The position numbers and the translations under genes were made by a program. A DNA stretch of 39,659 nt from positions 1 through 39,659 of the IMG/VR virus record IMGVR_UViG_3300045003_000010, one strand, 5' to 3'. This stretch comes from a virus. A model generated the notes under the pieces. The model did not search any database. It was not told where the DNA came from and saw nothing but the letters and a program-made list of their open reading frames with translations. Within the stretch, counting starts at the first letter, position 1. Each line of letters opens with the position of its first letter. Of this stretch, positions 1 to 39,480 are shown one piece after another.

Positions 1-127
1 CCGCCACTCTCTAGCACACCCCTTTAGTGTAAATTAAATCTGAAAGGCAAATCAAATGACATTCGATCCTGCAACGTTCCTCAACCAAACCTATGACGAA
101 GCCATGGACACGAAGATTATTCCCTGT
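1..127. repeat. Terminal direct repeat, left copy
   Basis: These 127 bases are identical to 39533-39659. The repeat holds the right arm end of a hairpin, the leader of the single-strand-binding gene and its first 24 codons. A length of exactly 127 matches a common assembly k-mer overlap. I therefore read it as a sign that the contig is circular, or comes from circularly permuted DNA, rather than as a packaged physical terminal repeat. Confidence 0.95.
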
Positions 128-505
128 CCAGCTGGTGAATACAATGGCCTCGCATCGAAGGTTGATGTTAAAGCTTGGTCCTCCAAGGACGGTTCTTCCT
201 CTGGGCTAAAGCTTGTTATCCTCTGGGAAATCCAAGATGATAACGTCAAGGCAATCACAAATCGTAATCCAACGATTGTGAAGCAGGAACAGATGCTCGA
301 TCTGACTGATACTGGAAATTTGGATTTTTCAAAAGGCAAGAATGTCGGCCTCGGACGCATTCGCGAAGCCCTGGATCTCAACACTCCAGGTCAGCCTTTT
401 GGCTTCTCCATGATTCAAGGTCGTATGGCCAAGTGCAATGTTACCCATCGGGTGGATGGCCCTGACATTTACGACCAAGTAAAGTCAATCGCAGCACTTT
501 CATAA
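56..505 (+). CDS. DUF669-like single-stranded DNA-binding protein
   Basis: This 149-residue protein resembles the DUF669-type phage proteins thought to bind single-stranded DNA. Visible features are an early CPAGEY segment, a beta-rich middle, a predicted helix (NVGLGRIREALDL) and a late GRMAKCNVTHR strand. On the circular map it directly follows the Sak4-like ATPase (38647-39480), which is a common pairing in phage recombination modules, so it probably coats single strands for annealing or strand exchange. The start is the ATG at 56, preceded by GAAAGG about 9 bases upstream. A G6/C6 hairpin lies just after its stop. The family call rests on overall pattern and context, not on a catalytic motif. 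Confidence 0.6.
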   Translation: MTFDPATFLNQTYDEAMDTKIIPCPAGEYNGLASKVDVKAWSSKDGSSSGLKLVILWEIQDDNVKAITNRNPTIVKQEQMLDLTDTGNLDFSKGKNVGLGRIREALDLNTPGQPFGFSMIQGRMAKCNVTHRVDGPDIYDQVKSIAALS

Positions 506-1844: not shown

Positions 1845-3161
1845 ATGGAACACCATAGTATTCCTTATTCTGAAATTACAATCGCAGCTAATCGTCAGCG
1901 TAAGGACTTTGATCCTGAAGCTATTACCGATCTTGCTAACTCTATTTCCACAGTCGGCCTGCTTCATGTGCCGATCCTCCGTGAAACCCCCTCCGGGTTC
2001 GTTCTAGTCGCCGGTGAGCGCCGACTGCGTGCTATGGAAACAATCTGGATATGCGGCGATGGGGTACGCTATAACGGCCACTCTTATGCGCCGTATGAGG
2101 TGCCGTATTCAACTCTGGGCGAACTCACCCCGCTTGAAGCTGAAGAGGCCGAACTTGATGAAAACCTCAAGCGACGCGATCTTACGTGGCAAGAAAGGTC
2201 AGAGGCTTTAGGGCGTCTCCATGCCTTGCGAATGGCACAAGCAACTCAAGCTGGCGAAACTCATATCATTGCCGATACGCTGAGGGAGATTGAAACTACT
2301 GATTATTCAGGAGATAGGCAAGCTATTCTTTTAAGCCAGCATTTGGATAATCCAGCAGTCGCTGCCGCGCGAACGGTTAAAGACGCTTTTAAAGTCATTA
2401 AGCGCGAAGAGGAAAAACTAAAGGCCGAAGCTCTTGCAGAACAAGTAGGACAAAATTTTAATTCTTCTGCTCATACCCTTGTCCACGCTGACTGCCTCGA
2501 ATGGTTTACTCAATGCCCTGACAACACCTTCGACGTACTTCTCTGGGACCCTCCCTACGGCATGAACGCACATAAGTTTGGTGATGCGGCAGGTAAACTT
2601 TCTGGAACAGTCCATGATTATGACGATAGTCCTCAAGCCTGGAACGAACTCATGCGACCAGCGTGTGAACAAGCTTTTCGCGTTGCTAAGCCACAGGCTC
2701 ATGCTTATATCTTTTGCGACTTCGATCGCTTTCACATGCTTCGACAATTCATGTTAAACGCTGGATGGGATGTTTTCAGAACCCCACTTATTGTGTACAA
2801 GCTATCCTCTGGCAGAATCCCTCGCCCTGAACATGGGCCTCGACGCCAGTGGGAAATGTGCCTCTACGCAATTAAAGGTGACAAACAAGTCACTGGAATT
2901 TTTTCAGACGTTATCCCATGCAAGCTGGAAGAGAATCTATTCCACGGCGCGAACAAGCCAGTCGAACTCTACGTCGATCTTCTTCGTCGATCAGTCAGGC
3001 CAGGTGATAGCGTTCTTGATGCTTTCTGTGGGACGGGAACGATCTTTCCTGCAGCGCATGAATGCAAGGTTTATGCGACAGGGATTGAGAAAAGTTCTGA
3101 ATACTACGGCATCAGTGTCAAGAGACTAAACGCTCTCGACGACGAACCTTCAATGATTTAA
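1845..3161 (+). CDS. ParB/N-terminal domain fused to a DNA methyltransferase
   Basis: The 438-residue protein has two parts. Residues about 1-115 are a ParB/Srx-like domain, with VPILRET and the signature AGERRLRAM. Residues about 210-430 form a DNA methyltransferase with DPPY at 235-238 preceding the cofactor loop DAFCGTGT at 392-399, the order of the beta class (N6-adenine or N4-cytosine). The middle (about 115-205) is helical and charged. The ParB part probably contributes DNA binding or a nucleotide-dependent clamp, and the C-terminal part transfers methyl groups from S-adenosylmethionine. AAGGAG lies 10 bases before the ATG. Next to a second methyltransferase-like gene, it suggests a DNA-modification island. 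Both catalytic motifs are intact. Confidence 0.85.
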   Translation: MEHHSIPYSEITIAANRQRKDFDPEAITDLANSISTVGLLHVPILRETPSGFVLVAGERRLRAMETIWICGDGVRYNGHSYAPYEVPYSTLGELTPLEAEEAELDENLKRRDLTWQERSEALGRLHALRMAQATQAGETHIIADTLREIETTDYSGDRQAILLSQHLDNPAVAAARTVKDAFKVIKREEEKLKAEALAEQVGQNFNSSAHTLVHADCLEWFTQCPDNTFDVLLWDPPYGMNAHKFGDAAGKLSGTVHDYDDSPQAWNELMRPACEQAFRVAKPQAHAYIFCDFDRFHMLRQFMLNAGWDVFRTPLIVYKLSSGRIPRPEHGPRRQWEMCLYAIKGDKQVTGIFSDVIPCKLEENLFHGANKPVELYVDLLRRSVRPGDSVLDAFCGTGTIFPAAHECKVYATGIEKSSEYYGISVKRLNALDDEPSMI

Positions 3162-3175
3162 CTCTGAGGTCCACC

Positions 3176-5590
3176 ATGCTCTTACCTCGTGGGCCTTCTG
3201 ACGCCCGAATGATGATCGTAGCTGATTGCGTTTCATATCGTGATCTTCAGCTAAATTGCATTCTCAATGACAGAGAATTTGATAGAATGCTTGAGGAAGC
3301 ATCAGTTGATCGCGCGCGGTGCTTTGTCACTGCTCTTATCCGCGGAGAAATTCGTTCTCAGACCTTTGACTATCAAGTCGCAATGTCTAAGAACCAAATA
3401 ACTCCCGACCATTCTTCCTTACACAATCGCTACGTCAGAAAGGAACTTCTTCCCTATGTCGAGGCCCTTACAAGAGATATTGATCTTGTCAAACCAAAGG
3501 TCATCCTTGCCCTCGGCAATGGTCCTTTGTTTACTCTCACCGGACGTTGGGGGATTAAGGCTTGGCGAAGCTCAATTATTGAATACACTTCTCCGAATGG
3601 GCATAAGTGTCACATTATCCCAACGTATCCTCCGAGCTTTATACAGTCGGTATGGAAAGAAAGAAATACTTGTGTCTTTGATATTCGCAAAGCATGGAGA
3701 CTTGCTACAACCGATCAAGAAATCAAGACACCCGAGTATAACTTTCTTGTCGAACCTTCATTCTCAAATGTGATGAATGTTCTGGATGACTTAAAGAGAA
3801 AGGTCGCGCGCGAGCCTCTAAAACTCTCTGTGGATATAGAAACTCGCGGAGGACATATTGCTTGCATCGGCCTTGCTTGGTCTGACGTAGATGCACTTTG
3901 CATTCCTCTTCTTCGCGCCGTGAGCCAAGAAACTCCTGATTGGCAGTCTCGTATTCATTACTGGCGTGAGGAAGAAGAAGCTTATTTAATGTTCCAGCTG
4001 TATAAGCTCCTCTCACATTCTAACACAAAGGTTATAGGCCAGAATTTTATATACGATGCTCAGTATTTCCACCGCTGGCTTCTCTACATTCCAAACTTTC
4101 TCCGCGATACGATGTGGACACAGCATTGTATGTTCTCGTCAATGCCAAAGGGCCTTGATGTTCTCTCTTCTTTTTACTGCGATCATCATGTCTATTGGAA
4201 AGACGAGTCGAAAAACTGGAACCCTAAGCTTGGAGAGAAGCAGCTCTGGATTTACAATTGCATTGACTGTGTTCGAACCTTTGAGATCGACACTAACCAG
4301 CAAAAGGTTATTTCTGACTGGCGCGCAACCTGGCCTGAATTACAAAGCGTCCATGACTTCCAGCAAAGCCTTTTCTATCCAGTTCTCACTACCATGAACA
4401 GAGGCTTACACGTTAACAACGAATCCAAGGCTCAGTTATCTTCCGAACTCTCAGACGCAATTGCCGAACGTAACGCTTGGATAACGGAGGTCTTAGGCCA
4501 TGAACTTAACATCAAATCGCCAAAGCAAATGGTCGATCTTTTCTATCGCGTCTTTGCTCAAAAAGAAATCAAAAAGCGAGGAACACTATCACCTACCTGT
4601 GACGACGCCGCGCTCGAACGCATCGCAGCCAGAGAACCTCTTCTCTTACCTCTCTGCGATAAAATCAGGGAACTACGTTCACTTGGAGTTTTTCGATCCA
4701 CGTTCCTTGAGGCTCCAGTCGATAGTGATCTTAGAATGCGATGCAGCTTTAATGTCGCTGGAACTGAAACATATCGCTTCAGCTCTTCAGAAAACGCCTT
4801 TGGCTCCGGAATGAACCTTCAAAATATCCCATCCGGCGACGAAAGTGACAATCTTCCTAATATAAAAAAACTCTTCCTTTGCGACGAGGGTATGGAGTTC
4901 TTCGACATAGACCTTGACTCCGCGGACCTCCGAGTTGTAACTTGGGAAAGCGACTGCGCGGGGATGAAGCGCTACTTCGCCGAAGGGAAAAAACCCTATG
5001 TGGAAGTTGCCAAGAATTATTATCAAGACGACTCGATCGACAAGAACCACTCGGCGTATAAGTTATTCAAGGTTATCTGTCACGCTAGTAATTATCTTGG
5101 CACATCCAGTGGCATTATCTCTAGGCTTCCTAAGAGTGCAAAGAGTGGAAATGCCATTACATCGCAGATGATTGATACCATCCAAGAATGGTACTTTAAA
5201 CAATTTCCAGAAATAAAGGACTGGCAAAATCGTGTCATATCACAGCTCAAACAACACCGCTATGTTCAAAACGTCTTCGGTTATCGTATCTATTTTTTCG
5301 ATAGACTTGAAGGCACCATCTTTAACGAGGCTATTGCTGCAATCCCCCAATCAACAGTCGCATGTCTTATCAATCGTGGTTACAGAAATATCTTCGTCAA
5401 CGAACCTGAGATTGAGGTGCTTCTTCAAGTCCACGACAGTCTCGCGGGCCAATACCCCATCGCCGCGCGAGAGACTGCTGTTAAAAAAGTTATTGACCAT
5501 TGTTCGATCCCGTTGCCATATGCTTCTGGCGAATTAATCATACCAGTTGGGATCAAGACTTCCCAAGTCTCGTGGGGGGACTGCGCTTAA
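3176..5590 (+). CDS. DNA polymerase family A with UDG-like domain and 3'-5' exonuclease
   Basis: This 804-residue protein is the likely replicative polymerase. Residues about 1-180 resemble family 4/5 uracil-DNA glycosylases (GPSDARMMIV, a KPKVILALGN strand, IPTYPPSF near 150), but the usual GEAPG loop reads VADCVS. A DnaQ-like exonuclease follows, with DIE at 220-222, an NFIYD motif and a YNCID motif. The polymerase part has motif A at 579-586 (DLDSADLR) and motif C HDS at 753-755. In motif A the usual glutamate of the sugar-selecting position is aspartate (D584), and motif B (KVICHASNYLG) is divergent. GAGGT lies 5 bases before the ATG. Its stop abuts the next gene. Polymerase assignment is firm; glycosylase activity is doubtful. 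Confidence 0.92.
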   Translation: MLLPRGPSDARMMIVADCVSYRDLQLNCILNDREFDRMLEEASVDRARCFVTALIRGEIRSQTFDYQVAMSKNQITPDHSSLHNRYVRKELLPYVEALTRDIDLVKPKVILALGNGPLFTLTGRWGIKAWRSSIIEYTSPNGHKCHIIPTYPPSFIQSVWKERNTCVFDIRKAWRLATTDQEIKTPEYNFLVEPSFSNVMNVLDDLKRKVAREPLKLSVDIETRGGHIACIGLAWSDVDALCIPLLRAVSQETPDWQSRIHYWREEEEAYLMFQLYKLLSHSNTKVIGQNFIYDAQYFHRWLLYIPNFLRDTMWTQHCMFSSMPKGLDVLSSFYCDHHVYWKDESKNWNPKLGEKQLWIYNCIDCVRTFEIDTNQQKVISDWRATWPELQSVHDFQQSLFYPVLTTMNRGLHVNNESKAQLSSELSDAIAERNAWITEVLGHELNIKSPKQMVDLFYRVFAQKEIKKRGTLSPTCDDAALERIAAREPLLLPLCDKIRELRSLGVFRSTFLEAPVDSDLRMRCSFNVAGTETYRFSSSENAFGSGMNLQNIPSGDESDNLPNIKKLFLCDEGMEFFDIDLDSADLRVVTWESDCAGMKRYFAEGKKPYVEVAKNYYQDDSIDKNHSAYKLFKVICHASNYLGTSSGIISRLPKSAKSGNAITSQMIDTIQEWYFKQFPEIKDWQNRVISQLKQHRYVQNVFGYRIYFFDRLEGTIFNEAIAAIPQSTVACLINRGYRNIFVNEPEIEVLLQVHDSLAGQYPIAARETAVKKVIDHCSIPLPYASGELIIPVGIKTSQVSWGDCA

Positions 5591-20897: not shown

Positions 20898-21929
20898 CTA
20901 ACCGCGTTCTTGGATTGCGGCCATTGTTTCTTCGAGCGTGTCGTCCATCGAACCTTTTGGAACCGTACCGTTCCGCGACTTCGAAGTTACGTCCACATGA
21001 TCGCCCATTGCACGTTGGCGCTTGGCAGCTTTCTTGGCCGCTTCGTCTTTTTGAGCGGATAGTTTTTCGGCTGTTAGCCGCTCTATCTCTTTCTCACGAA
21101 GATCAGGCCGACCCCATAGCGCGCGGTCATAGGCGTCTTGGAGACTTGTCGCAGCTCCAGCGTTAATGATCTTGTTGATGTCGTCAGCAAGTTCATCAAA
21201 TAGCGGGTGATTACCGTCATCAGCAAAAGCGTCGATTTGCGAGCGAGCAACTGCGCGGCGGCGTTCAATTTCTTGGTTCTGGGCAGAAGATAGACGATTT
21301 TCAAGTTCCTGGAAACGTCTATCATAAGCAGCTAGTCGGGGGTCTTGAGGTTCTCCTTGACCAGCTATATATTCGAGAAAATCCTTGAGAGGGATATTAT
21401 AGCTTTCGAACAGTCGCGCCGTTAGTTCAAGCTTCTGAGCAGGAGTACCGCGCGAAAGGAGGTAATGATTAGCTGCAAATGATTGAAACAATCCCACAGG
21501 ATCGATATTTTCTGCGGCCAAGATTGGTGCATAAGGTTCTACTACCTTTGAATATCTTGCGCCTAGATCAGCCGCTTCTCGATACGCATTAATCCCGCGC
21601 ATCATATCTTCTTCACGCTTTAAAATCTCTTGCTGCGCGCGCGAAGGTATCTTTGCCCAATCCTCAAGAGCCTCTTTTGTCCAAGTCTTTGGAGCCCCTA
21701 CGTCTTGGACAGCTTGCGAGTTGACTACCGGCTCGCTCGAAGTTTGGGCAGGAGGTTCAGCCACATCAGCAGTCTCGGTGCTGCCGGAAGACTTATCCTC
21801 CTGCCCCCCAGCAGTTTCGTCCGTTCCCTCGTCAGAACCTGCCTGTCCAAACAGTTCTTCAGAGATTTCCGCAGCACCAGCGGCGACGTCGAAATCTGAC
21901 TGGGTTTCTTGTTCTTTCTCTTCGTTCAT
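20898..21929 (-). CDS. Scaffolding protein candidate
   Basis: The 343-residue protein starts with a very acidic, disordered segment (about 1-75: EEKEQETQSDFD, DEGTDETAGGQEDKSS), followed by long helices with TKEALEDWAKIPSRAQQEILKREEDMM. A basic end (residues about 300-325) contains KKAAKRQRAMGDHVD. Acidic disordered start, helical core and basic coat-binding tail directly upstream of the coat gene are the hallmarks of internal scaffolds. It assembles the procapsid and leaves before or during packaging. Confidence 0.8.
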   Translation of the reverse strand: MNEEKEQETQSDFDVAAGAAEISEELFGQAGSDEGTDETAGGQEDKSSGSTETADVAEPPAQTSSEPVVNSQAVQDVGAPKTWTKEALEDWAKIPSRAQQEILKREEDMMRGINAYREAADLGARYSKVVEPYAPILAAENIDPVGLFQSFAANHYLLSRGTPAQKLELTARLFESYNIPLKDFLEYIAGQGEPQDPRLAAYDRRFQELENRLSSAQNQEIERRRAVARSQIDAFADDGNHPLFDELADDINKIINAGAATSLQDAYDRALWGRPDLREKEIERLTAEKLSAQKDEAAKKAAKRQRAMGDHVDVTSKSRNGTVPKGSMDDTLEETMAAIQERG

Positions 21930-30451: not shown

Positions 30452-30991
30452 TTACAATCCCAACTCACCCAACAGCGCGGACGTATCCACTGGCGCTGCA
30501 GTCGAACCGCGTTCCGATTTGAGCTTTTCGATAATCGTCGCAATGGCAGGAACATTGCGCAGAGCCAACTGACCCGCACGATCCATTGCGTCATATCGAG
30601 CGCGGATTGCGTCATGGTCAGGAGCGGGCTTTTTGCTCTTCGCGGCCATGTCATTAACCCACTGCTCAAACGCGCGGAAAATAATTCCCGCGACCGGACC
30701 CGAACCATCGCCGGAACGCTTCGACCAATCTCCAGACTGAAGCCGTTCGGCGACCGAACGCATAGCCTCGAATTTAGTCTTCGCATCCTTCTTAGCATCG
30801 CCGGTTAGATCAGCCTTCGGCATAGCCGCCGCATCGCTGATCTTCTGAACAATGCCGTGGTTCAGCGCACTAGAGCGAATTTCATCGCTCAATGCGGCTG
30901 TGTCGATTGTGAATGAATGAGAACCGCCGACAGTGAATGTCAAAACCGTTCCCTCTGACGACACAGCAATAACGCTATTCTTGCGTGACAT
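30452..30991 (-). CDS. LLGELGL-tailed protein A
   Basis: The 179-residue protein has an N-terminal beta part (SVIAVSSEGTVLTFTVGG), a helical middle and a C-terminus VDTSALLGELGL. It is a divergent paralog of the plus-strand protein at 33089-33709. Shared positions include HGIxQKxxDA, a GxW segment, LALRxxxxxxxIIExL and the AVDT/PVDT-x-LLGELGL end. The ATG at 30991 has GGAGG 6 bases upstream, and the promoter at 31058-31085 lies just before. Function is unknown. Expression from its own promoter and terminator suggests an early, separately controlled role. Confidence 0.75.
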   Translation of the reverse strand: MSRKNSVIAVSSEGTVLTFTVGGSHSFTIDTAALSDEIRSSALNHGIVQKISDAAAMPKADLTGDAKKDAKTKFEAMRSVAERLQSGDWSKRSGDGSGPVAGIIFRAFEQWVNDMAAKSKKPAPDHDAIRARYDAMDRAGQLALRNVPAIATIIEKLKSERGSTAAPVDTSALLGELGL

Positions 30992-31057
30992 AATCAACCT
31001 CCATTTGCGCGGGTGAGAAACGATGGAGAGCCGCGCGCCCATTTCCATCTGCGAGAG

Positions 31058-31085
31058 ATAATACGCTTTTGAGCAGAGGTTGCAA
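31058..31085 (-). promoter_or_regulatory. Sigma70-type promoter of the minus mini-operon
   Basis: On the minus strand TTGCAA (31085-31080) and TATTAT (31063-31058) are separated by 16 bases. The -10 box matches 5 of 6 and the -35 box 4 of 6 consensus bases. Transcription would start near 31050, giving a leader of about 60 bases before the ATG at 30991. Confidence 0.6.
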
Positions 31086-31188
31086 CAACTATTTTTGTCC
31101 CAATGCGGGATATCTCCAGCGGGTGAAACGCGCCGCGCAACCAAATCTCCGACCTCCATCCTGGCTCTCTTAATTCGGCGAAATTAAC

Positions 31189-31236
31189 GTTGCGTTTAGC
31201 TACTAAAATCGTCAGTCCCGTTGCATTTAGCTACTA
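31189..31236. repeat. Two 17-base direct repeats (iteron or operator candidates)
   Basis: GTTGCGTTTAGCTACTA (31189-31205) and GTTGCATTTAGCTACTA (31220-31236) differ at one base and lie 31 bases apart, about three helical turns. A partial third copy (TTTAGCT) is at 31240-31246. Each contains the small palindrome TAGCTA. Same-face spacing fits binding by a regulator or initiator. Confidence 0.65.
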
Positions 31237-31298
31237 GAGTTTAGCTTGGCGTTGATATGGCTTTCATAAGCAAAACCAAAAGCGAAATAGGAAATTGC

Positions 31299-31327
31299 GG
31301 GGGATTTGAAATTTCAAATTAGAGGGG
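31299..31327. repeat. Partial palindromic element E4
   Basis: The core ATTTGAAATTTCAAAT (31303-31318) is a perfect palindrome like the core of E1, but the outer arms are GGGGG and GAGGGG, which are not complementary. It looks like a decayed or differently used member of the E family in the early control region. Confidence 0.5.
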
Positions 31328-31484
31328 ATTTAGGAATCGGCTGCGCGGCGACCTTTTATATCCCACGCGCGCGTGAACGGCCCTAGTCTCACCTGTCATT
31401 ATCTATTGATTGACGCGCATCCCTCATCCATCAATGGTCGTAAATGGCACGATTGCCAAGTTTTTATAAAAGGAACTGTTCCCA

Positions 31485-31697
31485 ATGATTGAAGATAACG
31501 AAGATGACTTCAGCGACTTTGAGGACGAAGCTCAGCCCGAAGGATCGGCGAACATTGATCCGCCTTCGCTCTCTGGTTTCCACGTCCTGGCTGGCGATGG
31601 GTCGCATCTTGGGACTTATGGAAGTCGAGAAGATGCAGAAGCCTTCGTAAATGGGCATCTTGCTGATCACGAAGGCGTAACCATCGTCGAGAGTTAA
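31485..31697 (+). CDS. Very acidic small early protein
   Basis: The 70-residue protein opens with a strongly acidic run (MIEDNEDDFSDFEDEAQPEG, about half Asp or Glu). A small domain with FHVLAGDGSHLGTYGSREDAEAFVNGHL follows, which looks like a beta hairpin plus helix. It is the first plus-strand gene after the control region and has its own strong terminator. Phage proteins of this sort can be nucleic-acid mimics that block host enzymes, but that is an inference from charge and position only. Confidence 0.65.
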   Translation: MIEDNEDDFSDFEDEAQPEGSANIDPPSLSGFHVLAGDGSHLGTYGSREDAEAFVNGHLADHEGVTIVES

Positions 31698-31708
31698 ATT
31701 TTCAGCTA

Positions 31709-31761
31709 GGCGTAGGAGGAAGACCCCTCCAACCTCCTCTTCCTCCTACGCCGACCCTTTT
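31709..31761 (+). terminator. Strong stem-loop terminator
   Basis: A perfect 15-bp stem (31709-31723 with 31738-31752) has a 14-base loop and is followed by GACCCTTTTTC. It comes soon after the stop of the acidic early gene. It should end most transcripts there, so that downstream genes need read-through or another promoter. Confidence 0.8.
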
Positions 31762-31780
31762 TCAAGGCTGTTCTGTCCAA

Positions 31781-32209
31781 ATGCCTTTACAAAAATCTAT
31801 CACCCGCGAACATCGCATTTATCTCGCACTGTGGCGCAAAGCCCTAAATGATGAAAAGTGGGACGGAATTATTAACTGCTCTTCCCGTCAAATGGCTATT
31901 TCCATGCGACAGGGAATGTATCGAGCAATTCGACCTTTTCGTATAGGCGAGATGAACGATATGGAGCTGCAAACAGCAGCGGAGAAGTTTGTTATTGTCT
32001 TGCATCAGGACAAAGCTGCAGGGACTGGCTTTTTAGAAATAAAACCACGTCTAACACTTGCGGCGCTGGATGCAATGTTCGACACTCTCGGCATTGATGA
32101 AGAAGATCTTCTTCTCGGCGACGAACGCCGCGCGAATTTAGACCTTCAAAAACTCCTCGAAGAAGAACCCGAAACCCGCTCGACACCTTTTTACACAAGA
32201 GGAGAGTAG
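31781..32209 (+). CDS. Hypothetical early protein
   Basis: The 142-residue protein is not recognised. It has a basic N-terminus with ITREHRIYLALWRKALND, a middle with WDGIINCSSRQMAISMRQGMYRAIRPFRIG, and a helical acidic C-terminus (ALDAMFDTLGIDEEDLLLGDERRANLDLQKLLEEE). The central segment could form a small DNA-binding helix pair. It lies in the region where phages keep host-takeover genes, two bases upstream of the next gene. Confidence 0.6.
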   Translation: MPLQKSITREHRIYLALWRKALNDEKWDGIINCSSRQMAISMRQGMYRAIRPFRIGEMNDMELQTAAEKFVIVLHQDKAAGTGFLEIKPRLTLAALDAMFDTLGIDEEDLLLGDERRANLDLQKLLEEEPETRSTPFYTRGE

Positions 32210-32211
32210 AA

Positions 32212-32478
32212 ATGGGTTTTAGTCCTGAGTTCGATGCCCATCCTAACGATGGCTTTATTATCCTCGATAGGTTTAATCAGCCCTGGGCGCGAACGCTATT
32301 CAAAACCAAATCACAAGCACTTCAAGCGCTACAAATGTCGCACTGGAACAATGACGATCTTCGTCACTTCAAAATTGTTCCAGCCAAATTCGATTGGGAT
32401 AAAGGTGAAATATGCTCTATTTCTTCTACGGACGAGATGGAACTTTCGGACCATTCACCAAACTCGAAGTCAGAATGA
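32212..32478 (+). CDS. Hypothetical early protein
   Basis: The 88-residue protein begins GFSPEFDAHPNDGFIILDRFNQPWARTLFKTKSQALQAL, which suggests a small alpha-beta domain. The last 25 residues are acidic and may be disordered. GAGAGTAGAA precedes the ATG. It overlaps two short frames at its 3' end (32412 and 32494). No function is recognised. Confidence 0.55.
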   Translation: MGFSPEFDAHPNDGFIILDRFNQPWARTLFKTKSQALQALQMSHWNNDDLRHFKIVPAKFDWDKGEICSISSTDEMELSDHSPNSKSE

Positions 32479-32528
32479 TATTGGTAGGGTACCATGATCG
32501 AAAGACAATACGGCAACATCGTATTTAG
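32412..32528 (+). CDS. Possible 38-residue overlapping gene
   Basis: A frame beginning MLYFFYGRDGTFGPFTKLEV sits inside the end of the 88-residue gene, with AAAGGTG four bases upstream of its ATG. The YGRDGTFGPFTK segment looks like a real small beta fold. Overlap with two neighbours makes it uncertain. Confidence 0.3.
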   Translation: MLYFFYGRDGTFGPFTKLEVRMILVGYHDRKTIRQHRI

Positions 32529-32646
32529 CTGTGATGCAGATACAAGATTCTGGGAGGAGGCTTTTGAGGATGCTGGTTGGCGCGCCCGCAAACATCGCGT
32601 TGGCTTAAAAGAAGAAACTCGTGGGCTGGCATTACCGAAACCCTAG
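32494..32646 (+). CDS. Small hypothetical protein
   Basis: The 50-residue frame begins MIERQYGNIVFSCDADTRFW and continues EEAFEDAGWRARKHRVGLKEETRGLALPKP. It resembles a natural protein in composition. The ribosome site (GGTAGGG, 4 bases away) is imperfect. It overlaps the next gene by 26 bases. No function is known. Confidence 0.45.
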   Translation: MIERQYGNIVFSCDADTRFWEEAFEDAGWRARKHRVGLKEETRGLALPKP

Positions 32647-32959
32647 CGCGTTTCCGAACGCTTACCATCGAGCGCTTTTAAATGCTTGTCTCGAACCTTC
32701 TGTTCCACAAGTCATTAACTCCTTCCCAAATCTCGCTAATTTAAAGGTCGAGGCCGAGCGTTTTCGCTGGTTTCGCTGGTGTATTCGCCAGCGACCATCT
32801 GCTGCTTTTGAATTGGCTAGGCTTCTCGATCAATTTGAAACTCGAACCTTTTATAAAGAAATAGAAGGTAGATTTATTCTCTTTCTCATAGCACAACCAG
32901 ATGTTCTTTCAGAGTTTATACGCCTAAATCCACAGCTTAGCGATACATTCGCAGCATGA
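32621..32959 (+). CDS. Hypothetical helical protein
   Basis: The 112-residue protein begins at a GTG (GWHYRNPSAFPNAYHRALLNACL) and is predicted largely helical, with arginine- and aromatic-rich stretches (AERFRWFRWCIRQRPSAAFELARLLDQF). The start lacks a strong ribosome site and may be coupled to the overlapping upstream frame. Its stop overlaps the start of a tiny membrane protein (ATGA). It is not recognised. Confidence 0.5.
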   Translation: MGWHYRNPSAFPNAYHRALLNACLEPSVPQVINSFPNLANLKVEAERFRWFRWCIRQRPSAAFELARLLDQFETRTFYKEIEGRFILFLIAQPDVLSEFIRLNPQLSDTFAA

Positions 32960-33045
32960 TCGCTCGCGCGCGGATTGTTGTTGTCAATCGTTTTATTTTC
33001 CTCGCAGCCGTTCTCCTCCTATTGACTCTCACCCTCGCGCTATGA
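32956..33045 (+). CDS. 29-residue membrane micro-protein
   Basis: ATG 32956 overlaps the preceding stop as ATGA. The product is MIARARIVVVN followed by a strongly hydrophobic run (FIFLAAVLLLLTLTLAL), which is one membrane segment to the last residue. The coupling and clean topology suggest that it is real. Its role is unknown. Confidence 0.45.
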   Translation: MIARARIVVVNRFIFLAAVLLLLTLTLAL

Positions 33046-33088
33046 GAATATCTTCGCGGACACTATTTTGTCCAAAGGAGAAATGAAA

Positions 33089-33709
33089 ATGGCAACTGAA
33101 GCTGAAACCGCAACGAAGCCTTCAAAGACTGAAAAGGTCTCTGTCACTATGAAGGACGGTCGCGCGGTCGAGTTTAATAAAAAGCAAAAACTCGTAAAGA
33201 CCTCGACTGTCTCCGATGACGGCTCTGTCTCTGTCCGATTGGATTTCGTCAACGGCGAGACCCGTAACTTTATCCCTCGCGATGATATGATCGCACGCTT
33301 CGCTGCTCACGGTATTGAGCAGAAGCTTGGCGACGCGATTGCAGGTGAAACTGACATCAACGACGCTGTTCTTTCAGTCGATGATCTTATCAACCGCCTG
33401 AATGAAGGCGAATGGAATATCACTCGCGCGGCGGGTTCTTTCGCCGGAACGTCAATTCTCATCCAGGCGCTGGTCGAGGCTTCTGGCAAGTCGGTCGAAG
33501 ACATCAAGGCCTTTCTCGCCAACAAGTCTCAGGCGGAAAAGCTCGCACTTCGACGTTCGGAGAAGCTCAAGCCCATCATCGAACGTCTGGAAGCAGCCAA
33601 GGCCAAGAACTCCAAGAACGCTGTTGACACCGACAGTCTGCTTGGAGAGTTGGGACTTGGTGGTGCACCAAAGACCACTCACAAGCACAAAGAAAAAGAA
33701 CCTGCATAG
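33089..33709 (+). CDS. LLGELGL-tailed protein B
   Basis: The 206-residue protein is a divergent paralog of the minus-strand protein at 30452-30991. An N-terminal basic, beta-containing region (VSVTMKDGRAVEFNKKQKLVK) is followed by a helical core (HGIEQKLGDAIAG; INRLNEGEWNITRAAGSFAG; LALRRSEKLKPIIERLEAAK). AVDTDSLLGELGL follows, then a basic 19-residue extension (APKTTHKHKEKE). I prefer the ATG at 33089 because AAAGGAG lies 8 bases upstream; at 33083 the spacing would be 2. A strong terminator follows. Expression is probably high and early. The function is unknown. Confidence 0.75.
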   Translation: MATEAETATKPSKTEKVSVTMKDGRAVEFNKKQKLVKTSTVSDDGSVSVRLDFVNGETRNFIPRDDMIARFAAHGIEQKLGDAIAGETDINDAVLSVDDLINRLNEGEWNITRAAGSFAGTSILIQALVEASGKSVEDIKAFLANKSQAEKLALRRSEKLKPIIERLEAAKAKNSKNAVDTDSLLGELGLGGAPKTTHKHKEKEPA

Positions 33710-33734
33710 TCTCCGATCCTATCGCTAGGTTCTT

Positions 33735-33780
33735 CCCCGGCAGTAGTTAGTCCCCCTTTTCTACTGCCGGGGTTTTATTA
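33735..33780 (+). terminator. Intrinsic terminator after protein B
   Basis: A 12-bp perfect stem (33735-33746 with 33761-33772) has a 14-base loop and is followed directly by TTTTATTAT. It ends transcription of the gene at 33089-33709. Confidence 0.85.
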
Positions 33781-33809
33781 TCTCCAGCTTATAACAGCTA
33801 TTGTATATT

Positions 33810-33837
33810 GTCGGGAATTATGCGACAACATTCCGAC
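33810..33837. promoter_or_regulatory. Palindrome upstream of the zinc-ribbon gene
   Basis: GTCGGGAAT (33810-33818) and ATTCCGAC (33830-33837) are complementary with one bulged G, enclosing an 11-base loop, 29 bases before the ATG at 33867. An operator or leader hairpin is possible. Nothing in the sequence identifies the binding protein. Confidence 0.4.
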
Positions 33838-33866
33838 GGCCATTTTTCCGTCAAGTGGAGGTTGGA

Positions 33867-34391
33867 ATGACTACTGAACTTGATCCCTTTTTTGCCGAAC
33901 TAGAGGCCGAGATCGAAAAGGCCAAGGCAAAAAGCAGTCTTAAAAAAGACGCTGAAAAGCTTCGCAAGGACGCGAACAACATGCGGCTCGAAGCTCATAT
34001 CCGTCGCCGCGCCAGCGAAGAACTCAAAGCACTACAAGCCATCCTCGATGCTACAGCCTGGAAGCCGATCGCTATCGGCGCGCTGTTTACCGAGCAGCAT
34101 TGTGATGGTTGCGATACCATCCATCGAACTTTCCTCCAATACATGCAACAGGAGCAAAAAATTTCGCAACCCTCTACAAAACGCTGGGTTAGAATATCTA
34201 CTCCTGAACTTTCTCTTCCCCACGAAACCATTGTACAGCCTATCCGCACCCATATCTGTGCTGCTTGCGCGCCTGAACACGGCTTCGATGCGGACTTTCC
34301 TACCATCCGCTTAATGCCTTCTCTCGGTACTCTCACCGTTTCCTCGACTTACGTACAAGGAGATATAAATGCCCAGAACGAAGCTGATTGA
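33867..34391 (+). CDS. Coiled-coil zinc-ribbon-like protein
   Basis: The 174-residue protein has a charged coiled coil (about 10-62), then two CxxC pairs (C79/C82 in HCDGCDTIH and C131/C134 in ICAACAPEHG) spaced like a zinc ribbon. A helical insertion lies between them. GGAGG lies 5 bases before the ATG at 33867, which decides the start against a longer frame from 33801. Proteins of this layout often bind nucleic acid or transcription machinery, but I recognise no family. Confidence 0.6.
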   Translation: MTTELDPFFAELEAEIEKAKAKSSLKKDAEKLRKDANNMRLEAHIRRRASEELKALQAILDATAWKPIAIGALFTEQHCDGCDTIHRTFLQYMQQEQKISQPSTKRWVRISTPELSLPHETIVQPIRTHICAACAPEHGFDADFPTIRLMPSLGTLTVSSTYVQGDINAQNEAD

Positions 34392-34554
34392 TCGACCACG
34401 AAAGGTCGAAGTACAAATACCTTCTTCTGTCTGGGATAAGGTTCAAAATGAGCTTTATTCCGATGTGGAAGGTAAAATCCCATTCGGCGCAACATCGCGC
34501 CTTGCAACGCAGTTGTTTATAGATTGGCTTAAGGCTAGAAAGGTAGCTATATGA
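34369..34554 (+). CDS. Small ribbon-helix-helix-like protein
   Basis: The 61-residue product reads RKVEVQIPSSVWDKVQNELYS in its first half and LATQLFIDWLKARKVAI at the end. A short strand followed by two helices resembles ribbon-helix-helix DNA-binding proteins. AAGGAGATATAA precedes the ATG. It overlaps the previous gene by 23 bases and the next as ATGA. A transcriptional regulator is a reasonable guess, not demonstrated. Confidence 0.55.
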   Translation: MPRTKLIDRPRKVEVQIPSSVWDKVQNELYSDVEGKIPFGATSRLATQLFIDWLKARKVAI

Positions 34555-34769
34555 CTTATTTAGTTACTGGAACAAATCCGCGTTTAGAAGTGCGCAAGTA
34601 CACTATTTGGGATACAGTGAAAGAAGCTATCGACGATGCCGAAAAGTCTATTAAAACAGGTTTTACAGATATTATAATCTGGGAACATTATGCGACTCCG
34701 GTGGTAAGACCAGTTATAGACTGGAAACATCGGACTTCTTCTTCGCATGACCGAAAGGACCACCCATGA
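34551..34769 (+). CDS. Small hypothetical protein
   Basis: The 72-residue protein begins MTYLVTGTNPRLEVRKYTIW. It looks like a small alpha-beta domain with one helix (TVKEAIDDAEKSIKTGF) and a strand (DIIIWEH). Both ends overlap neighbours (ATGA), which fits a coupled operon. No function is recognised. Confidence 0.55.
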   Translation: MTYLVTGTNPRLEVRKYTIWDTVKEAIDDAEKSIKTGFTDIIIWEHYATPVVRPVIDWKHRTSSSHDRKDHP

Positions 34770-35437
34770 CCAAGATTGAACTGGTGGCGCTTGCTAACCG
34801 CTGCGAACGCGCCTTAGGGCCGGATCGGGAGTTGGACGCGCGGATCGTCGAAGCACTCGGGTATCGGCGCACAGTCGAACGAGAAGGCAAGGTTTGGCGC
34901 TACTACGGCAGCGGTCCTCTGGGGAATATCGAAAGATTGGCTAAAGCAACTTTGCCGCGCTACACCGCCTCCCTCGACGCCGCAATGACGCTGATCGAGC
35001 CGGACTGGGCCTTCAGCATCGACAATGGACCGTGCCACTGGATTTGTCTTGGCGAGGAGAAGCCGATGGGCCGGTGCGACATCAAATATCCGAAGCCGGA
35101 TTACGACGGCGAAGGTGATAGCTGGATCACCGTAAGGGCGATCGCAGCAACCCCCGCCCTCGCTCTCTGCGCCGCAAGTCTAAAAGCAATCGCATCACAG
35201 GAGGATGACGCGAGCGAGTTGGGCGACGAAAGCACCGTCTCGGTATGCAGGGACGCAATCGACGAAATCGACCGTCTCAATGCACTGCTGGGGGAGGCGA
35301 GGGATTATCTTCAGCGGTTAGCTGACCATCAGCAGAATACGCGGGGCGATATGCTCTACAAGGGCTACGCAGACGACGAGCTGATCTCCCTCCTCACCAA
35401 GCTCGGGGAAGGCTCGCGCTGCGGAGCCGAACAATGA
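34766..35437 (+). CDS. Alphaproteobacterial-type hypothetical protein, higher GC
   Basis: The 223-residue protein has an opening (LVALANRCERALGPDRELDARIVEALGYRR) and a PRYTASLDAAMTLIEPDWAFSID segment that I recognise from a hypothetical family common in alphaproteobacteria and their phages. It is noticeably GC-richer than both neighbours (codons such as GCG, CGC, CCG), a sign of recent transfer. A middle part reads TPALALCAASLKAIA, and the C-terminus is helical. The function is unknown. It is the best host clue in the window. Confidence 0.65.
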   Translation: MTKIELVALANRCERALGPDRELDARIVEALGYRRTVEREGKVWRYYGSGPLGNIERLAKATLPRYTASLDAAMTLIEPDWAFSIDNGPCHWICLGEEKPMGRCDIKYPKPDYDGEGDSWITVRAIAATPALALCAASLKAIASQEDDASELGDESTVSVCRDAIDEIDRLNALLGEARDYLQRLADHQQNTRGDMLYKGYADDELISLLTKLGEGSRCGAEQ

Positions 35438-36714
35438 ACAACTTCACACCTACAGAAGAGCAAGCAGCTGCAGTTGAATCTATTATCAACTGGTTTCGCG
35501 GCGATCCGAATTACTATGTTCTTAAAGGCTATGCGGGAACAGGTAAAACTTACCTAATGACTTATCTAGTCCATACAGGCCTGGGTAATCAATATCATAA
35601 GCCAATTTTGCCTTCCCGTATAATCTTCACCGCGCCAACAAATAAGGCTGTTAAAGTCCTTCGCAACTATCTCGACGGCGCGGGGCTGCAAGAATGCCCT
35701 TCAGCAACGATCTTTTCCCTTCTCGGCCTTAAACTCATGCCCAATGGCGAAGTTAAAGAAATTGCTTCGCCTGAAGAACCTACTGATCTTTCGCGTTATG
35801 ATCTTATCGTCGTGGACGAATCGTCCATGATTAATCGCTTTCTTATGTCCGAAATCGAAAAAGCATTTTCAGAATGGAATGTCCCTTTTCTCTTCATGGG
35901 TGATCCAGCCCAACTCCCGCCAGTCGGCGAGCCTTTTACTCCTGTCTGGAATATTCAAGACCACTCAACTCTTACTCAGGTAATGCGATATGGAAATTCT
36001 ATGCTTGATCTTGCTACTTCTATTCGTAAGGTGGTGGACCATCCTTTTCCATCAATCAGGATTGAGACCGCGCCACCTGTTTTTCGCCTTCAAAAGTCCG
36101 AATGGATGGACAGGATTGTGGAGAATTTGGAACATCTTAAATCCGGGGATGCTAAGGTTATTGCTTGGAGAAATGTTACTGTCGATACTTACAATCGTTT
36201 TATACGCAGTCATTTATTCGGAGTAACCGCGCGCGAGCCCTGGCTTCCAGACGACAAGATCGTTGCAACTGCCCACCTCAAAGGTCTAGATGATGAAACC
36301 TTTATGCGAACAGATGAAGAAGCCACAGTCCTCGAAGTTGTCCGAGGCTTCCATCCAAGATTTAATGAATTCGAGATTTGGAACCTTCTCGCACTCGACG
36401 AGACGGGGAAAAAAGTCACAATCCGAACCCTTACTCCAGAAGGACAATTCGCGCTGAACAATCGTTTAAACGAATTGTCAATGGAAGCGAAGCAAGGCAA
36501 ACGCTATAAATGGGCTGAATTTTGGAGGCTAAAAGAAGCCTTTAACGAAGTCCGCCACTCCTACGCGATTACTTCTCATCGTTCGCAAGGTTCTTCTTAT
36601 ACAAAGACTTTCGTTGATCTCGAAGACATTATGCTCAATCGCAATCGCAATGAAGCCTTTCGATCGCTTTATGTTGCTTGTACAAGACAAAGAGAGGAAT
36701 TATATATCAGCTAG
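35434..36714 (+). CDS. Dda/RecD-like SF1B helicase
   Basis: The 426-residue protein has Walker A GYAGTGKT at 32-39, Walker B DLIVVDESSMI, motif III FMGDPAQLPPVGE, and a late YAITSHRSQGSSYTKTFVD with YVACTRQREELYIS at the end. This is the full set for RecD/Dda-type SF1 helicases that move 5' to 3' on single-stranded DNA. It probably unwinds or remodels replication forks and recombination intermediates. Its start overlaps the previous stop (ATGA). It is shorter than RecD and close to T4 Dda (439 residues). Confidence 0.9.
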   Translation: MNNFTPTEEQAAAVESIINWFRGDPNYYVLKGYAGTGKTYLMTYLVHTGLGNQYHKPILPSRIIFTAPTNKAVKVLRNYLDGAGLQECPSATIFSLLGLKLMPNGEVKEIASPEEPTDLSRYDLIVVDESSMINRFLMSEIEKAFSEWNVPFLFMGDPAQLPPVGEPFTPVWNIQDHSTLTQVMRYGNSMLDLATSIRKVVDHPFPSIRIETAPPVFRLQKSEWMDRIVENLEHLKSGDAKVIAWRNVTVDTYNRFIRSHLFGVTAREPWLPDDKIVATAHLKGLDDETFMRTDEEATVLEVVRGFHPRFNEFEIWNLLALDETGKKVTIRTLTPEGQFALNNRLNELSMEAKQGKRYKWAEFWRLKEAFNEVRHSYAITSHRSQGSSYTKTFVDLEDIMLNRNRNEAFRSLYVACTRQREELYIS

Positions 36715-36737
36715 AAAAACAACAATGGACATCATTA

Positions 36738-36772
36738 TTCCCGTAAATTAGAATTTTCAAATTCTCGGGGGA
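36738..36772. repeat. Palindromic element E5 before the LLGELGL micro-gene
   Basis: TTCCCG and CGGGGGA arms surround an AT-rich core containing GAATTTTCAAATTC. It fills the gap between the helicase stop and the next ATG at 36780, and its right arm overlaps the purine-rich ribosome region. It may act as terminator, attenuator or translation-control stem. Confidence 0.6.
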
Positions 36773-36779
36773 TTCCCTT

Positions 36780-36983
36780 ATGGTTCCGTCAGTTGAAACT
36801 ACAATCCGCATAGCTGAGCTTCGGCAAAAGGCTAGGGATGGTACACTTACTCTCGATGAAATGAAAGAGGCAATTGCCTTTCTACGCCAAGAAAGACTTG
36901 CAATGCCACAGACGAGTTCGAAGCCTCGAACCAAAGCCGCGCCTATTGATCCAGATGCGTTGCTTGGAGAGTTGGGACTGTGA
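36780..36983 (+). CDS. Small LLGELGL-tailed protein C
   Basis: The 67-residue protein begins with a helical pair (IRIAELRQKARDGTLTLDEMKEAIAFLRQERL), followed by a flexible basic part (PQTSSKPRTKAAP) and the end IDPDALLGELGL. The helical part resembles a common small phage family (ELRQKxxxGTLTxxEMKEAI). The tail is the same as in proteins A and B, and at DNA level 19 bases (36961-36979) equal 33639-33657. It sits between helicase and nuclease genes, so a replication-adaptor role is plausible, not shown. Confidence 0.7.
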   Translation: MVPSVETTIRIAELRQKARDGTLTLDEMKEAIAFLRQERLAMPQTSSKPRTKAAPIDPDALLGELGL

Positions 36984-37066: not shown

Positions 37067-37160
37067 AGCACTTTCGCAATTTGAAATCTTATTCCTAATG
37101 CTAGGCTTGTTACTTGGAGGAATATTTGGCTTCGCCTTTGGCCGCGTGACGAAGCAATGA
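37059..37160 (+). CDS. 33-residue membrane micro-protein
   Basis: ATG 37059 has GGAAGGA 7 bases upstream. The product is MNEALSQFEILFLMLGLLLG followed by GIFGFAFGRVTKQ, one glycine-rich membrane segment with a basic end. Its stop overlaps the nuclease ATG (ATGA). The role is unknown; it may tether the neighbouring complex to the membrane. Confidence 0.5.
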   Translation: MNEALSQFEILFLMLGLLLGGIFGFAFGRVTKQ

Positions 37161-38125
37161 GCCGTCCTTATTTTCCTGTCGCTATCGACAGCACACTTCT
37201 CGCCGCCTTTCGCTCATGTCCTCAGCGCGCCTATCGCCAGTATATAGAGCATTGGAAGCCTGCGGCAGACTCTGTCCATCTAATAGCTGGAGGCGCATTT
37301 GCAAGCGGAGTGGAAGAAGCTCGCCGCGCTTATTACGAAAACTCAATGTCTAACGACGACTCAGTTGCGGTCGGACTACGCGCGCTTATCGACAAGTATG
37401 GCAACTTTGAATGTCCGCCAGACAGTGCAAAATCGCTGGAGCGCACTGCGGGCGCTCTCGAATTTTACTTTGAAAACTATCCTCTCGGCGGAGATGGGGC
37501 TGTGCCCATCACTTTCGGAGATGGAAGAAAAGGAATTGAATTTACTTTCGCTCAACCTTTGCCGATCAATCATCCAGTCAGCGGTGATCCAATCCTCTAC
37601 ACTGGACGTGCAGATATGATTGCCGAAGCCTACGGCGGAGTTTACATCTATGACGAAAAGACAACTTCTAGTCTTGGAGCTTCTTGGTCCAGACAATGGG
37701 ATCTCAGATCGCAATTTACAGGTTACTGTTGGGCGGCGCGCGAGTTTGGCCTTCATCCCACTGGAGTCTGTGTCAGGGGAGTTAGCATCCTTAAGACTAA
37801 ATATGACACAGCCCAAGTCGTCTCTTATCGTTCGGATTATGAGGTCGAAAGATGGCTCAGTCAAACTGTCCGTGACGTCGGAAGGATGATCGAGTGCTGG
37901 AAAGAAGGTTATTGGGATTATAATCTCGACCATGCTTGTACGGAGTATGGTGGTTGCGCGCTCGCGCCTGTTTGTAAATCCGCCGACCCTGAAGCTTGGC
38001 TTAAAACATACTTCACCAAGCGCGTTTGGAACCCCCTCGCGCGCGAAGAACAAACCATCGAACAATACGAAGCAGAAATGAAGGAGTGGCAAGGTGAAAT
38101 ACCTTCGGAAATGGCTCCTTCCTGA
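37157..38125 (+). CDS. Cas4/RecB-like PD-(D/E)XK nuclease
   Basis: The 322-residue protein has the PD-(D/E)XK core, GRADMIAE (motif II aspartate) followed by YIYDEKTTS (E-x-K), and a later QFTGYCW helix. Cysteines at CPQRAYRQY near residue 21 and CTEYGGCALAPVC near 265-280 form the one-plus-three pattern of a Cas4/AddB-type iron-sulfur cluster. It would resect DNA ends to give single strands for the Sak4-like recombinase and single-strand-binding protein. Its start overlaps the previous micro-gene (ATGA). Confidence 0.85.
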   Translation: MSRPYFPVAIDSTLLAAFRSCPQRAYRQYIEHWKPAADSVHLIAGGAFASGVEEARRAYYENSMSNDDSVAVGLRALIDKYGNFECPPDSAKSLERTAGALEFYFENYPLGGDGAVPITFGDGRKGIEFTFAQPLPINHPVSGDPILYTGRADMIAEAYGGVYIYDEKTTSSLGASWSRQWDLRSQFTGYCWAAREFGLHPTGVCVRGVSILKTKYDTAQVVSYRSDYEVERWLSQTVRDVGRMIECWKEGYWDYNLDHACTEYGGCALAPVCKSADPEAWLKTYFTKRVWNPLAREEQTIEQYEAEMKEWQGEIPSEMAPS

Positions 38126-38462: not shown

Positions 38463-38647
38463 ATACTTATACAGTCACCGACTTCGATGGAAAAGTAGAA
38501 TACGTTAATGCAGTAGGTTGGGGCATTACACCGGCCGGTGACCTTATCTTCTCTGACAGCCCAAACCAAGCACCTAAGCTCGCTTTCGCGCATGGAAATT
38601 GGGCAAAGGTCTGCCTCTCTCCTATCCAGCACGGAAAGGCTTCCTAA
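38459..38647 (+). CDS. Small hypothetical protein upstream of the recombinase
   Basis: The 62-residue protein begins MNTYTVTDFDGKVEYVNAVG and is predicted beta-rich (PAGDLIFSDSPNQAPKLAFAHGNWAKVCLS). The start at 38459 has AAAGGAGG 7 bases upstream and overlaps the previous stop (ATGA). Its own stop overlaps the recombinase start (TAATG). The function is unknown. Confidence 0.6.
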   Translation: MNTYTVTDFDGKVEYVNAVGWGITPAGDLIFSDSPNQAPKLAFAHGNWAKVCLSPIQHGKAS

Positions 38648-39480
38648 TGCTAGAGCCTCCGTTCAATCTTCCAGGCTTCAATGTTCTTCTCATGGGACCG
38701 GCGGGAACTGGCAAGACCCACTCTATCGGTACGATGGTAGATCTTGGCATAGACGTTTTTTATCTCGCGATTGAAAGTGGGATGGAGAGCCTTTTAGGCT
38801 ATTGGAAAGATAGGGGAAAGGAAGTTCCTCCCAACCTCCACTGGCATAAACTTGCAGTTCCTAAAGCTTCTTTCACCGAAATGATTGGAAATGCGAAGAA
38901 TGTAAACCTTTTAGATCAATCTGCTCTGGCAAAAATGGTTGATCCAAACAAAGGGAAGCACAATCAATTCATTTCTCTTCTCGAAGCGCTTAATAACTTT
39001 CCCGATGATCGAACTGGAGAAAAATTCGGTCCTGTAGATCAATGGGATCAATCAAAAGTTCTTTTCATCGACGGCGCGACGGGAGTAAGTCAGTGCGCTA
39101 TGTCCCTTGTCGTTGGCGGAAAGCCTGTTCGTTCACAAGCCGACTGGGGTATTGCTCAGGATCAGGTCGAAAAGCTTGTCCGAATGCTTTGCGATAATTG
39201 TACTTGTCACTTTGTCCTTATTGCACATGTAGAACGCGAGCAGGATGCTGTTCTCGGCGGTATAAAGCTAATGGTTTCTACTCTCGGGAAGGCTCTTGCA
39301 CCTAAGTTTCCAGCCATGTTCTCTGACGTTATTCTCGCAGAACGCAGTGCAGATAAATGGTCATGGAACACGGCCAGCGCAATGGCTGATGTAAAGACTA
39401 GAAATCTTCCTATAGCTTCTGGTCTCGCGCCAGATTTTAAGCAAATTGTGGATAAATGGGTTAACAGAAATAAAGCGTGA
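38647..39480 (+). CDS. Sak4-like RecA-fold recombinase ATPase
   Basis: The 277-residue protein has Walker A GPAGTGKT at 17-24 and Walker B KVLFIDGAT. A late HFVLIAHVEREQDAVLGGIKLMVSTLGKALAPKFPAMFSDVILAER resembles the phage Sak4/DUF3920-type AAA ATPases, single-domain RecA-like annealases. ATG 38647 overlaps the previous stop (TAATG); a longer frame starts earlier, but without a ribosome site. It would act with the Cas4-like nuclease upstream and the single-strand-binding protein next on the circle. Confidence 0.75.
   Translation: MLEPPFNLPGFNVLLMGPAGTGKTHSIGTMVDLGIDVFYLAIESGMESLLGYWKDRGKEVPPNLHWHKLAVPKASFTEMIGNAKNVNLLDQSALAKMVDPNKGKHNQFISLLEALNNFPDDRTGEKFGPVDQWDQSKVLFIDGATGVSQCAMSLVVGGKPVRSQADWGIAQDQVEKLVRMLCDNCTCHFVLIAHVEREQDAVLGGIKLMVSTLGKALAPKFPAMFSDVILAERSADKWSWNTASAMADVKTRNLPIASGLAPDFKQIVDKWVNRNKA

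Follow-up and report, generated by a model that had tools for sequence, protein, structure and literature searches.

The stretch of DNA analysed here, referred to as the window, spans 39,659 bases and is a virus record from IMG/VR; it consists of a replication module on the plus strand, a virion module on the minus strand and many small genes. Three of its open frames code for proteins, designated A, B and C, which share a short acidic peptide at or near the C-terminus. Protein A (30452..30991, minus strand) has 179 amino acids and belongs to an undescribed family; its best PHROG match is weak, and that PHROG is itself of unknown function. Protein B (33089..33709, plus strand, 206 amino acids), likewise of an undescribed family, is a paralogue of A, and a profile comparison aligned the two over about 147 columns with a probability of 99.9 and an E-value of 7e-33. 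Protein C (36780..36983, plus strand) is a protein of 67 amino acids with a body rich in R and K and a basic linker, and its gene is the next one after the gene for a Dda-like helicase. Pfam, PHROGs and NCBIfam left A, B and C without an assigned function, and when their profiles were compared with the PDB sequences, no hit was significant and gp32 did not appear. For B, a five-stranded N-terminal part and helices were predicted by AlphaFold2 (pLDDT 91.1, pTM 0.70); a PDB search with this fold gave no significant match, and the best viral matches were unnamed.

The tails of A, VDTSALLGELGL (30455..30490, minus strand), and of C, IDPDALLGELGL (36945..36980, plus strand), form the very C-terminus of their proteins. 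An earlier note on this DNA had described a C-terminal peptide common to all three proteins. All three indeed bear it, but in B it lies only near the end, since VDTDSLLGELGL (33623..33658, plus strand) is followed by a further 16 residues, GGAPKTTHKHKEKEPA, and not by 19 as counted in the note. Residues 181-187 in the tail of B are predicted by AlphaFold2 to form a short helix. Common to A, B and C is the motif [D/N]-x-D-x-L-L-x-E-L, with the fuller form [D/N]-[T/S/A]-D-[A/D/S]-L-L-x-E-L(-x-L), and the mean net charge was determined to be +2.0 for the linker and -2.7 for the tail. More than four residues beyond the motif are present in 24 of 64 A and 43 of 83 B proteins, and because 67 of the 147 A/B proteins extend in this way, a free C-terminus is dispensable for the motif; all 57 C proteins end at most four residues after it. 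The profile alignment of C to B is confined to the 15-column tail, as expected from the earlier observation that C has no other similarity to A or B. An identity of 19 bases between the genes for B and C had also been reported, and the sequence concerned, TGCTTGGAGAGTTGGGACT, was found in the window solely at 33639 and 36961.

Conservation and co-variation of the tails

The families are kept in about 80 related IMG/VR contigs (the profile scan yielded 80 loci), one genome from Manatee Spring (MW202489) and one Microcystis phage (Mel-JY34), and relatives of both B and C were identified among them. The phages bearing them are a little-known group, lytic and mostly uncultivated. No A/B relatives were found in bacterial genomes by two pattern scans, or in plasmids by one query. 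The 49 long genomes contain 98 A/B members, and C is present in 48 of them, most C copies having been located by linkage within the loci. Scored with a matrix trained on these same tails, the motif was identified in 96% of the A/B and 96% of the C members, versus 3% (A/B) and 1% (C) of shuffled copies of the same proteins. Among the C-termini of other open reading frames, 61 of 10,331 carry the motif at a lower score threshold, and the next-best family among those present in at least 12 genomes is a structural gene, with 25% of its members carrying it. The scan used two patterns, one of them being the tail; it is thus biased towards tailed A/B proteins and may have passed over tail-less members. 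All six B relatives that were found independently of the tail pattern carry the tail. Profiles made from the bodies alone, after trimming of the tails, recovered the three proteins in every case in which the locus extends far enough, IMG/VR contigs sometimes being incomplete, and nearly all of the recovered proteins end in the tail. This confirmed that the shared tail is genuine and beyond chance, and that it is conserved on two unrelated bodies. Absence of the motif from related phages had been named beforehand as an observation that would speak against a docking function; instead, it is present in nearly all of them.

The motif is retained in relatives with polymerase identities as low as about 32-37%. 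In VS-ABTNL-3, a cultured phage of Vibrio splendidus with a polymerase 32% identical, two distant A/B relatives were identified (E-values 1e-9 and 2e-5) which share a variant tail, ending in DFDVDSLFN and SFDINDLF. The gene downstream of the helicase in this phage codes for a protein ending in KIDPQALLDDILGGI, and its likeness to C comprises the tail and linker only.

Within one genome the tails are more alike than between genomes, and for every family pair none of 5000 shuffles reached the observed value. When the three nearest relatives were used for comparison, the effect was found for A-B (p 0.002), was marginal for A-C (0.07) and was not significant for B-C (0.27). In 24 independent sister pairs taken from the replication-gene tree, a one-sided Wilcoxon test gave p=0.003 for A-B, 0.027 for A-C and 0.039 for B-C. 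The co-variation of A-C and B-C is weaker than that of A-B, and part of the likeness of the A and B tails is inherited, because A and B are paralogues. Joint switches of the tails were located on the tree in G033 and G049 (mostly to AKF), in G051 (all to F) and in G034 (DELL/EELV/GELL).

A proposed common docking partner and its alternatives

The same replication module and the tails were identified together with three or more different virion modules (in the window and in the relatives L016-L032 and L113-L210). The tails are therefore linked to the replication module and not to the virion module, so that a partner in the virion is unlikely and a partner in replication is favoured. Taken together, the sequence data make the tail a candidate short linear motif by which the three proteins would dock on one shared partner in replication or recombination, with a probability of about 0.7. 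The earlier note had likewise suggested a common docking peptide, and this idea gained from the presence of the motif in nearly all relatives and from a co-variation that persists under phylogenetic control. According to this model, a basic linker that is presumably flexible would carry the tail as a helical tip, acidic and amphipathic, and one groove on the partner would accommodate the tips of all three early proteins, namely the paralogues A and B and the small C, which is unrelated to them. The tail would thus bind a protein, the same site would serve all three, and the partner would be encoded by the phage as part of its DNA replication and recombination machinery.

Among the candidates, the family-A DNA polymerase (3176..5590, plus strand) is placed first, although its identification as the partner is tentative. 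It has an N-terminal domain of the UDG superfamily and a weak match to a 3'-5' exonuclease, and was confirmed in 44 of 44 relatives tested; the polymerase match is split in two in G017, G020, G021, G040, G042 and G045. The next two candidates, each somewhat less probable, are a ssDNA-binding-like protein with an OB fold (56..505, plus strand) and a Sak4-like RecA-fold annealase (38599..39480, plus strand; phrog_124, E 1.2e-19), identified in 48 of 49 genomes. The former is predicted with high confidence to be a beta-barrel (AlphaFold2 pLDDT 93.8). Its closest solved fold is PrgE, a DNA-binding OB-fold protein of plasmid pCF10 (Foldseek, 8s4t, E 3.5e-05), followed by an archaeal RPA OB domain (E 4.6e-03), and its C-terminus lies directly after the last strand, without an acidic tip. 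The PD-(D/E)XK exonuclease (37157..38125, plus strand; 48 of 49 genomes) and the fusion of ParB_N with an N6/N4 methylase (1845..3161, plus strand; 46 of 49 genomes) are, even jointly, improbable partners. A partner outside this list, either the A/B bodies or a host protein, is about as conceivable as the OB-fold protein. The polymerase, Sak4, the nuclease and the protein at 56-505 are encoded in every sufficiently complete contig, and the ParB-methylase nearly always. Covariation, by protein or by column, singled out none of the candidates. The highest mirror-tree value was obtained for TerS, which probably reflects saturation of the replication-gene distances.

The Dda-like helicase (35434..36714, plus strand) was rejected as an obligate partner, since it was not found in five tailed genomes (G018, G020, G047, G048 and the complete Mel-JY34); its columns are mildly enriched among those that track the tails. 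Next to B, a core gene codes for the Cys-rich protein D (33867..34391, plus strand) with the N-terminal segment LDPFFAELEAEI. In this family the N-terminus is acidic, hydrophobic and tail-like, as in DDFFAEL or LDDLLAES, and no other core family has a related segment. Only 11% of the D proteins exceed the tail threshold, and a role as a further tail bearer is therefore a suggestion that we do not claim; D is missing from several tailed genomes. Copies of the motif were also seen at the N-terminus of TerS-like proteins in G040 (40390-40983), G043 (21119-21757) and G048 (2487-3233), and the copy in G040, NSDALLDILLGG, is close to the tail of A in the same genome, VDSDALLDTLMVGG; as motif bearers, these N-termini are suggestive only.

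Early phage proteins commonly take over the host, and the tail might be aimed at one of its conserved proteins, for example the sliding clamp, RNA polymerase or a replication factor, with the tail variants following the host. This has a low probability: that no phage-encoded partner stood out in covariation agrees with it, but the tail is accompanied by a fixed replication module, and none of 204 tails matches the clamp motif Q-phi-x-[LM]-[FL]. On the latter result the beta clamp was rejected as a partner, and the link to clamp-binding peptides on which the earlier note had speculated is not supported.

Similarly improbable is a docking of the tail on the A/B body itself, by which A and B would chain or pair with the tail in a groove and C would cap or regulate them through the same groove. 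A/B is the most universal family, all three tails co-vary, and residues 181-190 of B are modelled with a pLDDT of 86, as if this block might be packed; however, the columns of the A and B bodies are not enriched among the tail-tracking columns.

A degradation or capsid-targeting signal is very improbable. A short hydrophobic C-terminus can act as a protease signal, and a cargo peptide can likewise lie at the end of a protein, but the extension of about half of the A/B proteins by more than four residues beyond the motif and the persistence of the tail with at least three virion modules argue against both.

That the peptide is a functionless recent copy, or the product of gene conversion between the genes, can practically be dismissed: the 19 bases identical in B and C, and a codon identity at the shared tail residues slightly above the expectation from codon usage for B-C (0.461 versus 0.409), stand against values close to expectation for A-B (0.416 versus 0.391) and A-C (0.380 versus 0.408), and against retention of the motif in the most distant relatives. 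The 19-base identity is thereby poor evidence of recent copying. The match of synonymous codons is about that expected from codon usage. The tails are therefore not explained by recent copying, which was rejected as their origin, and the likeness within genomes points to selection at the protein level. A recent copy of A or B, the second observation named in advance as speaking against docking, was supported neither by the codons nor by the body-only profiles.

For docking on a common replication partner, these results mean that the partner becomes testable by way of the co-variation. Whereas docking motifs of phages are mostly discovered in individual proteins, the present one was identified in two undescribed families and in about 80 genomes, and it offers a way into three core genes without an assigned function.

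Comparison to known replication systems

In phage T4, the acidic, amphipathic C-terminus of gp32 serves to recruit several proteins of replication and recombination (PMC3016280, PMC11551737). Residues 248-270 of gp32 dock as a helix on Dda and constitute the optimal Dda-binding part, while residues 271-301 bind Dda weakly (PMC11551737). The extreme tip of gp32, LDDLLNDL, falls into the latter region and scores as the motif of A, B and C. The tips LDDLLAGL or LDDLLNEI of gp32 relatives also fit the motif, and the tips of cyanophage gp32 proteins do not. The systems differ in that gp32 is an OB-fold SSB, whereas here three bearers exist, and A, B and C showed no relation to gp32.

Tails of the T7 type, as in gp2.5 and gp4, have an aromatic residue at the extreme C-terminus. 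This was not found here, where the last core position is occupied by leucine in 190 of 208 tails and the A/B proteins continue beyond it in about half of the cases. In T7, the tails of gp4 attach to the family-A polymerase gp5 (PMC12593628); for gp2.5, the tail has been implicated in contacts with the polymerase and the primase-helicase (PMC5686142). The likeness lies in the use of acidic tails by two different phage proteins in one replisome, and the difference in the sequence, which here is a leucine motif, often not terminal, on neither the SSB nor the helicase.

The binding motif for the beta clamp, with the consensus Q-phi-x-[LM]-[FL] (PMC11139829), resembles the tails as a short linear motif by which many unrelated proteins reach one pocket; neither this consensus nor its hexameric form is present in the tails.

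Phage and bacterial SSBs usually have an acidic tip (PMC5686142). An acidic, hydrophobic tip after a linker is also found in A, B and C, with the negative charge, the conserved leucines and a probably flexible linker, but no OB-fold carrier was found, since B has no significant fold match in the PDB and the OB-fold protein of the phage has no such tail. In phage HK620, the last six residues of the SSB bring in Sak4, so that a short acidic-hydrophobic C-terminus takes the annealase to ssDNA (PMC5928155). There, the tail NDYPPF is located on the SSB itself, while the SSB-like protein encoded in the window is tail-less.

As with the SSB tails of other phages, docking on a common partner would deliver clients to the fork or ssDNA; unlike them, the recruiting tip would be spread over three non-SSB proteins. 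It is possible, though rather doubtful, that the recruiting tail has moved off the SSB onto three core proteins with two unrelated folds, resulting in a distributed-tail replisome. The three tips might then serve the same site and co-evolve with it, which is equally doubtful, and these phages would offer a test of whether recruiting tails can move from the SSB.
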